Source: a virus
Reading direction: 5' to 3' (one strand)
Length of the DNA stretch: 42,351 bases
Virus record (IMG/VR): IMGVR_UViG_3300029957_000017
Coordinates: 1-42,351 of that record
The notes under the pieces were generated by a model that saw only the letters and a program-made list of their open reading frames with translations, ran no database searches and was not told where the DNA came from. Both the position numbers and the translations under genes were made by a program. Numbering within the stretch: position 1 is the stretch's first letter; each line of letters begins with the position of its first letter. This document shows, one piece after another, positions 8,735-41,507 of this stretch.

Positions 8735-8959
8735 ATGAGTAATAAGAACAAGGGTTTGTATGAGAAGTTCCAAGTTGTTCGCACGGATGGGGAATCCGCT
8801 CCTGGACACCGTCACGCGGATTGCCGGTATTTCATCCTCGATCTAACTCATGACCCGTACGCACTTCCAGCCGTCCGCGCATATGCGAAAGCGTGCGCGG
8901 CCGACTATCCAGTGCTGGCCGAGGATCTTCTCGCGTGGGTTCGGTCGCAAGTGGGATGA
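8735..8959 (+). CDS. Small hypothetical protein upstream of primase
   Basis: 74 residues, started at ATG 8735 after GAGGGAGC. It contains YEKFQVVRTDGESAPG, then HADCRYFILDLTHDPYALPA. This resembles short phage and plasmid proteins in which a conserved F.V.R.DG...GEKH.GC.YFVLD..HD.YA..AL..YA pattern is common; the function of that family is unknown to me. ATGA overlap with the primase-helicase gene indicates coupled translation. Confidence 0.72.
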   Translation: MSNKNKGLYEKFQVVRTDGESAPGHRHADCRYFILDLTHDPYALPAVRAYAKACAADYPVLAEDLLAWVRSQVG

Positions 8960-10839
8960 TTGACATGCTCGACTTCGACAAATCCCGACTCCAATCGACC
9001 CCCGAGCCCCTCGTCCGCGAGCTCGAGGCGGCCGGCGCGAAGTTCCGGGGCCGGGCGTGCACGTGCCCCTTTCACGACGACAAGCACGCCAGCGCCGGGA
9101 TTTTCCAAAAGGCTGGCGGCATCTGGAGATTCCGCTGCCAGGTTTGCGAGGCGGGCGGCGACATATTTGACATCATGGCACGAGTGCAAAACAAAACCGT
9201 CGGCGAAGTACTCAAGGGCCTCGACGGTGGCGGCTCCTCCTATCGCCCCACCCATCGGCCGAGCCCAAAGCCATCCGCCCCGCCGCCACCCGAGGACGAT
9301 TGCCCGGCCCCGGACATGCCCGCCAGCCCGCCCCCGCGGTCGTTCATATCGCTGGCTGCCGCCAAATCCGAGTTGCGAAACCTCGTCGCCACCTACGTCT
9401 ACACCAGCCCGCAGACGGGCAAGCCAGAGATGTACGTCTTCAGGATCCAGCCGCCGGGGGAGCACAAGCGATTCCTCCAAGGATGCCCCGGCCCTGACGA
9501 TGACTCCATCATCCTCCAAGCCCCGGAGAAGCCGTGGCCCATCTACAACCGATCGCGAGTGGCCCGGGCCGAGCATGTCCTGGTCGCGGAAGGCGAAAAA
9601 GCCGTCCACGCCCTGACCGACGTTCTCACCGCTGGCGGCATCGACGGGATCGCGGCCACCACGAACCCGGGCGGCGCCGGAAAGTCCGAGCATGCCGACT
9701 GGTTACCGCTGGCCGGCAAGCACGTGTATTTGTGGCCCGACAACGACCCCGCGAATGACAAGGGCGTGCGGGTTGGAATTGACCACATGCGGCAGGTGCA
9801 GGCCATTCTCGAGGCCCTGGACCCAGCCCCACTGCTCTACTGGATCGACCAGGACGCCCTGTCCCTGCCGCCAAAGGGTGACGCGTTCGAATTCTGCGAA
9901 CGCTACCCGACGCAGGCCGCCAAGCTCGAGGCCCTGCAATCGGTCATGGCCAACGCAGATCCCCTAGGGGCCTCCGCGTCCGTCCGCGTGCTGCTCGAGG
10001 ATGTAATCGCCGGCCGGGTACAAACCGTGCCGATGCCGTGGAAAAGTGTGTCGGAAATGACCCGCGCCCTCGAGCCTGGCACCGTGACCCTGCTGTGCGG
10101 CGACGGCGGCGCGGCCAAGTCGCTGGCACTGCTCCAAGCCGTCGGGCACTGGCACTTCGATCTTGGCCACAAAGTCGCACTGTTCGCGCTCGAGGATGAC
10201 CGCAAGTATCACGTGACTCGGGCCCTGGTCCAGCGCACCGGCGAGATGGGCCTGGCCGACAAAGAGTGGATTCATGCCAACCCGGACATCGCGCGGCAGA
10301 TTCACCGGGACAATGCAGAGTTTATGGACCTTTTCGGCAGGCTGGTTTACGAGGCGCCCACCGAGGCCGTGCCCATCATGAAGCTCGCGTTCTGGGTCGA
10401 CCAACGAGCCGCGGAGGGAAACCGGATCATCTGTATCGACCCGATCACCGCGGCGCAGGTCGGCGCCCAATCCTGGCTCGACGATCAGGCGTTCCTCCTC
10501 GCGGTCAAAAAATCCGTCGTGACCCACGGCTGTTCCCTGGTGATCGTCACGCACCCAAAGAAGGGCGGGAACTACGGCGCGGGCATGGGGATGGACAACC
10601 TCGCTGGCGGGGCGTGCTGGTCGCGATTCTCCCAGACCATCCTCTGGCTGAAGAACCCGACGAAGAAAGAGCGGGAAATCAAAATCATGTCGGCCTGTGG
10701 TCCCATGGGGGTCGAGTGCAATCGGGTGATGTCGCTGTTGAAAACTCGCAACGGGGTGGGGGCGGGGTCGAATATCGCAATGCGGCTTGAACGGTTCAAG
10801 CTGTTGGAGCTTGGTGTAATCGCGAAGGAGAAATCGTGA
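8956..10839 (+). CDS. Primase-helicase: CHC2 zinc finger, Toprim and RecA-fold ATPase
   Basis: 627 residues, started at the ATG overlapping the previous stop. A CHC2-type zinc site is at residues 37-64 (CPFH, then CQVC). The Toprim region holds the acidic VAEGEKA near 215 and the DxD-like WPDNDPAND near 258. The ATPase part has Walker A GDGGAAKS near 383 and Walker B IICIDPIT near 491. The last part matches the AAA_25/RepA-like helicase fold. The protein should prime and unwind DNA for phage replication, combining the roles of DnaG and DnaB-like activity as in T7 gp4-type proteins. Its GTGA-coupled neighbour downstream may be an accessory factor. Confidence 0.88.
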   Translation: MIDMLDFDKSRLQSTPEPLVRELEAAGAKFRGRACTCPFHDDKHASAGIFQKAGGIWRFRCQVCEAGGDIFDIMARVQNKTVGEVLKGLDGGGSSYRPTHRPSPKPSAPPPPEDDCPAPDMPASPPPRSFISLAAAKSELRNLVATYVYTSPQTGKPEMYVFRIQPPGEHKRFLQGCPGPDDDSIILQAPEKPWPIYNRSRVARAEHVLVAEGEKAVHALTDVLTAGGIDGIAATTNPGGAGKSEHADWLPLAGKHVYLWPDNDPANDKGVRVGIDHMRQVQAILEALDPAPLLYWIDQDALSLPPKGDAFEFCERYPTQAAKLEALQSVMANADPLGASASVRVLLEDVIAGRVQTVPMPWKSVSEMTRALEPGTVTLLCGDGGAAKSLALLQAVGHWHFDLGHKVALFALEDDRKYHVTRALVQRTGEMGLADKEWIHANPDIARQIHRDNAEFMDLFGRLVYEAPTEAVPIMKLAFWVDQRAAEGNRIICIDPITAAQVGAQSWLDDQAFLLAVKKSVVTHGCSLVIVTHPKKGGNYGAGMGMDNLAGGACWSRFSQTILWLKNPTKKEREIKIMSACGPMGVECNRVMSLLKTRNGVGAGSNIAMRLERFKLLELGVIAKEKS

Positions 10840-12279: not shown

Positions 12280-13017
12280 ATGGGACAGGACACGAAAATC
12301 AGTTGGGCACACCACACATTCAACGCAGCACTGGGCTGCACAAAGGTTTCGGACGGTTGCAAGCACTGCTACGCCGAAACGTTCACTAAGAACCGCATGG
12401 GGCTCAAGGTCTGGGGCAACGAGCCCCGCCGGCCGATGTCCGCGGCCTACTGGAAGCAGCCGGCGAAGTGGAACAAGCTGGCCATTGCGGCCGGCGAACG
12501 CCACCGCGTTTTCTGTGGGTCGATGTTTGACTGGTGCGAGGACGATTACACCGTTGCCGCGCAGGTTGAGCGGCTCTGGCCGGTGATCGACGCAACCCCG
12601 CAACTCGACTGGCTCCTTCTCACCAAGCGGCCGGAGCGGATCATGCAGGTGATGCCCCCGGGAATACTAGGATATCCCAACATCTGGCTCGGCACCAGCA
12701 TTGAGGATATGCGAGTCGCGTGGCGGGCTGATGAGTTTCGGAACATCTCAGCGGCCGTGCGGTTCATTTCGTACGAGCCAGCTTTGGGGCCGCTGAATGA
12801 AATCGACCTGAGCGGTATCGACTGGGTAATCTACGGTGGCGAGAGCGGGCCCGGCCGCCGCGAGGATGACGTGACGTGGTCTCTGGGGATGGAGCTGATT
12901 TGCCGAACCCAGCATGTCGCGTTCTGGATGAAGCAGCGGTCTGGCGCCCGGCCCGGGGAAATGGACGGTCGCGCAACGGTCACCCGGCAACTTCCGGTAC
13001 CGAGAATGGAGAAGTAA
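12280..13017 (+). CDS. DUF5131 (phage Gp37/Gp68) family protein
   Basis: 245 residues. The signature of this family is clear: TKISWAHHTFNAALGCTKVS, then GCKHCYAE with cysteines C20, C27 and C30, followed by FCGSMFDWCED, LLTKRPERI, WLGTSIED, FISYEPALGPL and WVIYGGESGPG. The family is widespread in phages and looks like a radical-SAM-like TIM barrel with an atypical Cys arrangement; its reaction is not established as far as I know. In other genomes it often sits near genes for three-Cys-motif partner (TcmP-type) proteins; none is evident here. Confidence 0.88.
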   Translation: MGQDTKISWAHHTFNAALGCTKVSDGCKHCYAETFTKNRMGLKVWGNEPRRPMSAAYWKQPAKWNKLAIAAGERHRVFCGSMFDWCEDDYTVAAQVERLWPVIDATPQLDWLLLTKRPERIMQVMPPGILGYPNIWLGTSIEDMRVAWRADEFRNISAAVRFISYEPALGPLNEIDLSGIDWVIYGGESGPGRREDDVTWSLGMELICRTQHVAFWMKQRSGARPGEMDGRATVTRQLPVPRMEK

Positions 13018-38787: not shown

Positions 38788-39089
38788 GGCTGGCCCTCGA
38801 GGCTGATGGAGAATCCATCCGCGGCCGGCATCATCCGCGGCCGGTCCGGATCGTGCCACGGCGGCAGGGTCCGCCAGACGTCGGGGTGCTGAACGCGCAC
38901 CACGAATTCCAGCGGGTTCGGCCCGCCCTCTTCCAACTCGCGCCGCCAATCCGGCTCCAAATCGGCCGGCATGGGCGCCAGAACCAGCGGGCGATATGCC
39001 GGGCGTCGCGAGGGGTCGTAGCACTCCTCGGGCTTACGGTAGCCGGGGATGGAGCCCTTGGAACGCTTCACGCGGTAGAACGAAAGCAT
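38784..39089 (-). CDS. Hypothetical protein at small-terminase position
   Basis: 101 residues, ATG with AAGGAG upstream. It starts MLSFYRVKRSKGSIPG and contains PLVLAPMPADLEPDWRRELE and QHPDVWRTLPPWHDPDRPR. No helix-turn-helix of a small terminase subunit is evident. Its stop overlaps the probable terminase start, so the two are translationally coupled. Confidence 0.6.
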   Translation of the reverse strand: MLSFYRVKRSKGSIPGYRKPEECYDPSRRPAYRPLVLAPMPADLEPDWRRELEEGGPNPLEFVVRVQHPDVWRTLPPWHDPDRPRMMPAADGFSISLEGQP

Positions 39090-39486: not shown

Positions 39487-40611
39487 CTATCTCGCTTCCA
39501 TCGACGGCGGGGCCACGCGCGGTACCCGCAACTCCTCCGAGTAGGGCCCGTGCTTCTCCCCCCAGGCGATGCGCCAGGCGATGAACTGGTCCCGGGTCAT
39601 GCCGGCCGCGGCCGCCTGGGCATCCCAGCCGGGGACGTGGCTGCCGTCGCCGACGAAGTCGAAGCCGTGCACCTGGGCGAAGTACGAGGCCACCTTTTCA
39701 GGCCCCCATGGTTCGGGGAGGCTGAACTCGTTGTTGGGTTCGTCCGGACCCTTGGCTGGAATTCCCTTTGGTGCAAAGATGCCCTGCCACCCATTGGCGA
39801 TGGTGTCCTGGATCGACCCGATCGCGCCAGCCTCGCCCCATTTCTCCATTTGCTTCAACTTCGCCTTAACCGACATTGGCTTGAGCGCTGGCAACCGACG
39901 TTCGTGCCGATAGGCGACGTAGTCCCCCCACGCCTCGCGGAACTCGCCCGTGTTTAGGGAGCCAGGGAAAGAGATCTCGCTATCGCCCCCTCGTTCCGAC
40001 TTCACCCGGGGTGGTGCTGCTGGATCGGGGCAGTCATCGGTCCCATTCCCCCCACTCCCCCCTTGTGTCTCTTCTATGAGTCCTTCCTGTGTCCTTTGGG
40101 TGCAATGGGTTGCAGGGGAGGATGTCGCGTTTTGCAGGGGAGCGCTGCAATGGGTTGCACCGGTGCAATGGGTTGCAGGGGTAACGGGTGCAATGGGTTG
40201 CAGGGGTACGGGTGCAATGGGTTGCAGGGGTACGGGTGCAATGGGTTGCACCGGTGCAATGGGTTGCAGGGGTACGGGTGCAATGGGTTGCAGGGGTACG
40301 GGTGGGATTGCCAGCCTGCGGACGGCGCCTTTTTCATGGTTTCCGCCAGTCGCGTTTCCCTCCACTACGACCAGGCCGGCATCCTCGAGTTCCCCAAGCG
40401 CGTACCGGGCACCACGGATGGATATCCCGGACTCGCGGGAGAGGAGTGAGGCGCCAGCAAACGATCGTCCGTCCGGGTCCGAATGACGGAGCATGCAAAT
40501 CCAAATAGATTTGGCGGATTGGGTGAGGTTGGCAAAATGTCCGCCGTCAACAACGGCGTTGAGTAGTTGGAACACGATGTGCTTCCCGTTCTCGGCCATG
40601 TCCAGCCTCAT
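39487..40611 (-). CDS. Replication initiator-like protein with internal origin repeats
   Basis: 374 residues from ATG 40611, which overlaps the preceding stop (ATGA). Residues 10-95 form a winged helix-turn-helix (IVFQLLNAVVDGGHFANLTQ, LSRESGISIRGARYALGELE), as in phage O-type and DnaD-type initiators. About residues 100-165 are repeats of PLQPIAPV, followed by ATHC repeats encoded by the same DNA palindromes. The C-terminal domain, with the segment EFREAWGDYVAYRHE and DTIANGWQGIF, matches phage replisome organisers. It should bind the repeats in its own gene and load the helicase. Confidence 0.8.
   Translation of the reverse strand: MRLDMAENGKHIVFQLLNAVVDGGHFANLTQSAKSIWICMLRHSDPDGRSFAGASLLSRESGISIRGARYALGELEDAGLVVVEGNATGGNHEKGAVRRLAIPPVPLQPIAPVPLQPIAPVQPIAPVPLQPIAPVPLQPIAPVTPATHCTGATHCSAPLQNATSSPATHCTQRTQEGLIEETQGGSGGNGTDDCPDPAAPPRVKSERGGDSEISFPGSLNTGEFREAWGDYVAYRHERRLPALKPMSVKAKLKQMEKWGEAGAIGSIQDTIANGWQGIFAPKGIPAKGPDEPNNEFSLPEPWGPEKVASYFAQVHGFDFVGDGSHVPGWDAQAAAAGMTRDQFIAWRIAWGEKHGPYSEELRVPRVAPPSMEAR
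40101..40292. repeat. Probable origin: eight 14-bp palindromic iterons TGCAATGGGTTGCA
   Basis: Perfect copies start at 40101, 40146, 40164, 40189, 40213, 40237, 40255 and 40279. Each is an inverted repeat, TGCAA/TTGCA around a 4-base centre. Spacing is 18, 24 or 25 bases for all but the first interval (45). All lie within the initiator gene. The 25-base step shifts the reading frame relative to the repeat, so five copies encode QPIA and three encode ATHC. DNA is conserved and the peptide is not, as expected of protein-binding iterons of a lambda-like origin. Confidence 0.85.
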
Positions 40612-40997
40612 TTCATCAGGCCGAGGGTGTAAACCAGAAGATCGCCGCGGGATGGGCTGGTCTGCTCCATGTGAAGCAGTCCGCATTCCAGCATCGCCCG
40701 CCCGAATTCGCGAAGTCCACAAATCCCATCCACAACATCCACAAGGCCAGCCACGGAATCGAGTTTCACGTTGACCTGAAACCAATCTCCGCCCAGATTG
40801 CTGGCATGAAACCGGCCGAATTCGTTCGCCCATGCCCACACGGAAAGCAAGGCGCCGTGGACCATGCATCGCATTCCACTACTGCTCAATGTCGCATATC
40901 CAGGATGGCGGCGCAACACGTCCCCGATTTTCAATATCTGCTTGCGGCCCCGGAAAAGTCCATGATTGATCGCCATTTTCGTTCGTCGCTTTGACAT
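40608..40997 (-). CDS. Hypothetical first gene of the leftward unit
   Basis: 129 residues from ATG 40997 with GGAG upstream; longer frames run into the intergenic region. MSKRRTKMAINHGLFRGRKQ is basic; later MRCMVHGALLSVWAWANEFG and the C-terminal LLHMEQTSPSRGDLLVYTLG follow. Probably a small DNA-binding or regulatory protein acting with the initiator, but no family is recognised. ATGA overlap with the initiator gene. Confidence 0.65.
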   Translation of the reverse strand: MSKRRTKMAINHGLFRGRKQILKIGDVLRRHPGYATLSSSGMRCMVHGALLSVWAWANEFGRFHASNLGGDWFQVNVKLDSVAGLVDVVDGICGLREFGRAMLECGLLHMEQTSPSRGDLLVYTLGLMK

Positions 40998-41015
40998 GCT
41001 GGCTCCATTCAATCC

Positions 41016-41083
41016 CAGACCCCACCCAGGGCGCGCAAACACGGTGCAAGCCAATGGGCACGCGCTGGTCTGAGTGGGGTCTG
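41016..41083. promoter_or_regulatory. Long inverted repeat in the divergent intergenic region
   Basis: CAGACCCCAC (41016-41025) and GTGGGGTCTG (41074-41083) form a perfect 10-bp stem. Inside it CCAG/CTGG and CGCG/CGCG can pair further. The loop includes TGCAAGCCAATGGGCA, distantly like the origin iterons. It lies in the leader of the leftward unit. The rest of 41084-41448 is GC-rich, with a run of 10 C (41301-41310), and I see no gene in it. Confidence 0.5.
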
Positions 41084-41478
41084 AGGTTGTTTTGGATTCC
41101 ATTCCATCGGCTTGCGCCAACACCGTAGCACCTCCTGCCGGAATACGCAATACCACCGATTGTTTTTCCGCCCCCGAATTTCACCCGGGCAAAATCCGAA
41201 TACAACACCACCGCGCGACTGTTCCCGTTGGGGTCAGGCACGCCGTTTGCTTGGGGAGGACCCTGAAAACTGGCGGCGGGGTGTGAAGATGGGCGGTTTG
41301 CCCCCCCCCCGGCCGGTCGGACCGCCGCGCGGTTGGTCGGTTCGGCGAAGCCGGAACGCCTGTACAGTCCTGCTTTTGGGCCGGTTTCGCGGATTCATGG
41401 CTTGACTGCCCGCTTTGAAATCGCCAGCCCCCCGGGCAAGGACTTTTATTCAATCTAATTATTTTTTATTATTTCCTA

Positions 41479-41507
41479 TTGACTTTGAATAACTCTCACG
41501 ATATAGT
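41479..41507 (+). promoter_or_regulatory. Strong sigma70-type promoter of the rightward unit
   Basis: TTGACT (41479-41484) and TATAGT (41502-41507) match the consensus at five of six positions each, with an ideal 17-base spacer. An A/T-rich stretch upstream (41449-41478) may act as an UP element. It is by far the best promoter in this GC-rich window and fires toward the gene at 41573. Confidence 0.85.

Follow-up and report, generated by a model that had tools for sequence, protein, structure and literature searches.

The repeat array at 40101–40292 of the window (the whole stretch of DNA analysed, 42,351 bases) is likely, with a probability of roughly 80%, a cluster of replication-origin iterons that lies in the linker-coding DNA of an initiator gene and is bound by the winged helix of that initiator. 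The array is probably an in-gene iteron origin, which is an already known kind, and the new part is probably a recognition code. The comparison of ∼120 relatives suggests that one residue of the recognition helix largely decides which motif the initiator reads. The origin specificity of phage initiators has so far been studied in few model phages; if one helix residue sets the iteron, the origins of many phages could be identified from sequence.

The repeat unit TGCAATGGGTTGCA is an inverted repeat (TGCAA-TGGG-TTGCA) that is present in eight exact copies in the array; the remainder of the 42,351-base record has none. When up to three mismatches to TGCAATGGGTTGCA are allowed, 13 matches are found versus 4.2 expected by shuffling, and none of 100 shuffles reached 13. 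Numbered in gene order and without a strand of their own, iterons 1 to 5 (40279–40292, 40255–40268, 40237–40250, 40213–40226, and 40189–40202) are read in phase 1 as L/V-QPIA-P (LQPIA in iteron 1), and iterons 6 to 8 (40164–40177, 40146–40159, and 40101–40114) are read in phase 2 as ATHC. Counted upward from 40101, the steps between successive copies are 45, 18, 25, 24, 24, 18, and 24 bases, and the phase shift stems from a single extra A in one spacer (GGGGTAACGGG versus GGGGTACGGG). The exact-match search and the phase reading bear out the initial annotation, which had described eight perfect copies inside the initiator gene, a spacing of mostly 18 or 24 bases with one frame-changing step of 25 bases, and a gene that stays open through the shift while encoding QPIA five times and ATHC three times. 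The 45-base gap additionally harbors a degenerate half-iteron, TTGCA (40132–40136, no strand), located 22 and 23 bases from the equivalent halves of its neighbors, which marks a decayed ninth unit. Since the 24-base units also have their spacers in common, the identity of the array is partly due to recent tandem duplication. The identity of its copies thus provides weak evidence for selection, and the relatives are the real test.

The array is harbored by an O-like replication initiator gene on the minus strand (39487–40611, 374 amino acids). The mechanical ORF spans 39487–40869, and the start is probably the ATG at 40611, which overlaps the stop codon of the upstream ORF (40608–41156) in the sequence ATGA. 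The gene matches the Pfam family HTH_36 (E 1.3e-7; domain at 40369–40533, minus strand) and phrog_678, “replication initiation O-like” (E 2.2e-13), and other families of replication-initiation proteins match as well. A DnaD C-terminal domain is absent in Pfam, and the match to phrog_186 is weak (E 4e-4) and restricted to the HTH part, so that in the earlier label of an O/DnaD-like initiator the O-like half stands and the link to DnaD is weak. The window gene was also used directly as a query in protein and DNA searches, and no close relative of the initiator turned up. A sequence search against solved structures gave a weak match to the N-domain of a chromosome replication initiation protein (2vn2, E 3e-4), and a fold search returned generic winged helices, including the deposited initiator structure 4pt7, with nothing below E 0.01.

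The predicted structure (42 homologs) takes on the order of a winged HTH, a disordered linker, and a C-terminal helical domain. The winged helix is confidently predicted at residues 10 to 90 (mostly pLDDT >90) and contains the predicted recognition helix (residues 65–77; 40381–40419, minus strand). Arg66 in this helix is the only invariant column across the 42 homologs and lies on the same face as residue 70, one helical turn before it. Residue 70, which covaries with the iteron in the tests described below, is a tyrosine in the window (codon 40402–40404, minus strand). The repeat-encoded linker is predicted to be disordered, and because of this disorder its peptide would be free to be QPIA or ATHC. 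The C-terminal helical domain is of moderate confidence. It corresponds to a conserved domain (W..Y...R..KWGE..AI..I..NGWQG.F; 39727–39939, minus strand) that was assigned by alignment and a match to phrog_18589 (3.6e-11), is common to other initiators, and has relatives in bacterial genomes.

Elsewhere, the record is that of a tailed phage and has genes for a terminase, portal, capsid/protease, RecT, exonuclease, helicase, methylase, and primase-helicase. A DUF5131 protein (E 8e-62) is encoded at 12280–13017 among the plus-strand early genes. No P, DnaC loader, or DnaB gene neighbors the initiator, which is followed by a small ORF and the terminase. Two relatives by terminase, L129 and L130, showed no homolog of the window initiator. 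L129 carries a DUF1376-like primosomal gene (458–1153) with six GGGTGGTT repeats at 11-base steps in all three frames, an apparent swap of the replication module relative to the window phage in which the in-gene repeat design was kept.

The relatives bear out the claim of the initial annotation that selection acts on the DNA. When 2.9 million viral contigs were scanned at the DNA level only for pairs of TGCAA-N4-TTGCA palindromes within 30 bases, 116 stretches were obtained, versus 7 for the composition-matched control TCGAA-N4-TTCGA. The 116 stretches include homologs of the window initiator, in which the palindromes occupy the linker immediately following the winged helix. The sampled members L034, L124, L020, L101, and L108 match replication-initiation families; L035 has no match to these families. 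Across the homologs, the palindrome DNA encodes QPIA, CNPLH, or ATHC and is thus read in all three frames, which argues for selection on the DNA, and phase changes within one gene are found in the window, L034, the L124 group, L020, L101, L108, L035, and L099. Relatives that were collected by protein alone also have linker repeats, and no case in which the peptide was kept and the palindrome lost was seen among the relatives. The idea that the frame change has a significance of its own was dropped after comparison with lambda. The annotated iterons of lambda start at 39034, 39054, 39078, and 39101 and lie likewise in frames 0, 2, 2, and 1 of gene O, so that multi-frame iterons are neither special nor new. 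The same palindrome also appears in an apparently unrelated initiator, as L053 (962–2020) encodes a replication-initiation protein outside HTH_36 (phrog_9474) whose gene has four TGCAACCCGTTGCA palindromes in a single frame (VQPVA four times), one every 21 bases.

Covariation between the repeats and the HTH was measured in winged-helix initiators of viral contigs, named phages, and bacterial genomes, gathered solely on protein similarity, with 330 coding bases 3′ of the HTH scored per initiator. Loci that had come from the palindrome search were left out, and the paired TGCAA scan was not used as a sample because it also catches unrelated repeats. The post-HTH linker DNA of winged-helix phage initiators usually bears repeats. 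In the first sample, at least three TGCA were present in 8/8 initiators with Y at the position equivalent to Tyr70, versus 18/64 with other residues, and at least three TGACA/TGTCA in 15/30 initiators with R, versus 1/42. As this association was seen after the fact, the prediction was fixed before a fresh scan was performed. There, TGACA/TGTCA accompanied R in 7/10 cases versus 0/37 (p 2e-6), and in 6/8 versus 0/14 at <60% identity. The Y test gave 3/3 versus 14/44, one of the Y loci (L266) being almost identical to a locus found through the pattern. Among all HTH columns, the Tyr70 column alone reached significance, and it did so for both labels (z 6.4 and 6.9; neither was reached in 300 permutations). 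For the prophage initiators of bacterial genomes, the R test gave 10/20 versus 1/27 (p 3e-4). The covariation of iteron and HTH, proposed earlier as a check, was thus found and replicated in part, as the fresh scan held and the bacterial-genome set was mixed.

The code was read by counting GGGTG-NNN on both strands, and at least three copies, present for 37 of 117 proteins, were taken as a clear repeat. Since about one third of the sampled initiators have at least three GGGTG repeats, the code covers a subset. Residue 70 pairs with NNN as follows: Y with CAA, R with ACA/TCA, K with AAC, and T with CAT, and further N with CAC, V with CAC/CAT, E with CGG, and F with AAG. In a leave-one-out prediction from relatives of <50% identity only, residue 70 alone predicts NNN in 29 of the 33 scorable cases; the next best column reaches 18/35, and with shuffled labels the mean is 14% and the maximum 42%. 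The code was then registered in advance and applied in fixed form to the bacterial-genome prophage initiators, where 5/8 scorable cases were correct, a mixed outcome in which the associations of Y and R persisted. Both Y cases had CAA, six times each; of the three misses, one was a K (CAA) and two were R, one with GAC and one in which GGG came narrowly over ACA. Fourteen named phages were mixed: three R types agree, two R types are without GGGTG repeats, one N was missed, and G/Q types bear CAG. The G and Q types of the Pseudomonas phages PotUPM1, TC7, and zjk6 (L342, L343, and L346) have repeats of the TGCACCCCCGCAG form, which may be two opposed half-sites fused together. If these types count, G and Q with CAG would extend the code. 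Outside the GGGTG group, O-type initiators of enterobacterial genomes (L153, L154, and L164) carry palindromic linker repeats of the TTACC...GGTAA type.

The window fits the code, having Tyr70 together with GGGTG-CAA at 5/6 GGGTG sites. As judged from these sequence comparisons, the association of residue and repeat is genuine; for Y and R it is strong, and for the rare residues it is less certain. It is fairly likely that the family shares a code in which an invariant Arg goes with the GGGTG core and the residue four positions later sets the next three bases, the window being a Tyr member whose tandem palindromes are perfected. Arg66 probably reads the GGGTG core, and it is natural to infer that CAA would be read by Tyr70.

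For the array itself, three features of an in-gene iteron origin are found together: an O-like/HTH initiator gene, at least three similar units in linker-coding DNA, and a unit kept as DNA (three frames in relatives, two in the window). Binding of the iterons by the initiator is strongly implied by the covariation, and the array most likely has origin activity, given the family assignment and the analogy to lambda. The N-terminal winged helix would bind each unit, and several bound copies would build a nucleoprotein complex that opens the DNA. The C-terminal domain would then recruit the replicative helicase, possibly the phage’s own primase-helicase (8893–10839). The GC skew that had been suggested as a check gave no signal at 40.2 kb and was uninformative. 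An AT-rich tract was not found next to the array (AT 0.34–0.44 around it). The 60-base stretch with the highest AT content in the record (80% AT; 41446–41505, no strand) is intergenic between divergent gene sets, lies 1.15 kb from the array, and is a possible unwinding element or promoter. The lambda-like reading of the initial annotation is mostly, though not fully, supported: the in-gene iterons, the O-like family, and the multi-frame reading are shared with lambda, and the AT-rich tract and the P gene of ori-lambda are missing.

Covariation speaks for the coevolution of protein and repeats, not for a start of replication, and autoregulatory operators would therefore fit as well. The initiator would then bind the repeats to repress its own gene or to limit copy number, which is conceivable since binding inside the gene could block transcription, and the origin would lie elsewhere, for example in the AT-rich stretch at ∼41.45 kb, which stands apart from the array. 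However, the sites are placed mid-gene and not at a promoter, and this placement recurs in many initiators and is that of the origin in lambda, according to the available text of PMC7466680. No support was found for a separate origin, and operators are considered quite unlikely. It is very improbable that the repeats are selected as peptide, with a proline-rich linker in a structural or protein-binding role and the DNA identity as a by-product of duplication. The linker peptide is repetitive, and the shared spacers of the 24-base units point to a recent expansion of the array, but one DNA is read as QPIA, CNPLH, or ATHC, with two frames per gene in the window and several relatives. The linker is moreover predicted to be disordered, and the iteron DNA tracks an HTH residue.

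That tracking could in turn reflect shared ancestry, with the helix residue and the repeats passed on together by descent and no recognition code between them. The homologs are phylogenetically structured, and the significance for Y drops with stricter clustering (p 0.10 at <50% identity). Yet the leave-one-out prediction succeeds with distant relatives and exceeds that of the next best column, the R association persists in the fresh scan at <60% identity, and none of the other HTH columns is significant, which makes ancestry a rather unlikely explanation. The preferred reading remains an iteron origin whose repeats are recognized through the helix. If the code is true, the origins and iterons of many uncultured phages would be predictable from protein sequence alone, as would the initiator–origin compatibility of coinfecting phages. 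The rule could then be tested by a simple binding assay with residue swaps, a purpose for which the window, with its perfect array of eight copies, is well suited.

A single-residue code for phage initiators was not found in the open-access literature that was searched. In the available text of PMC8263062, the nearest published parallel is the covariation of origin and RepA_N DNA-binding domain as a module in PLE satellites, which also have semi-palindromic iterons. Unlike in the window, their origin is noncoding, and the covariation described there is at the level of the module, without a single-residue code. Lambdoid origins lie midway through O and consist of iterons and an AT-rich tract, as described in the available text of PMC7466680. 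The same text describes six-iteron lambdoid origins which, like the window, illustrate that the number of iterons is variable and lengthens the O protein by extra amino acids; they differ in having two extra iterons of lambda sequence and in keeping the adjacent AT-rich region, and phase or helix covariation is not reported in that text.

Ori-lambda and lambda O resemble the window in that iterons of inverted symmetry lie in the linker-coding part of the initiator gene, at steps near 20 to 24 bases and in several reading frames. The iterons differ (ATCCCTCAAAACGAGGGA in lambda, TGCAATGGGTTGCA in the window), as do the HTH subfamilies, and the window has eight copies compared to the four of lambda but neither an adjacent AT-rich tract nor a downstream P gene. 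O-like initiators of the same winged-HTH family as the window are encoded by Bordetella PHB09, Pseudomonas Pacha_bin_1, and Arthrobacter Leona, Jamun, and Kuleana. Their identity is too low for tblastn with the window protein, and their repeats are fewer than in the window and are not perfect tandem palindromes. All five have GGGTGCA-type repeats in the linker DNA, and the PHB09 initiator has a C-terminal end similar to that of the window, a W..W..R..E...L..GW.GLF domain.
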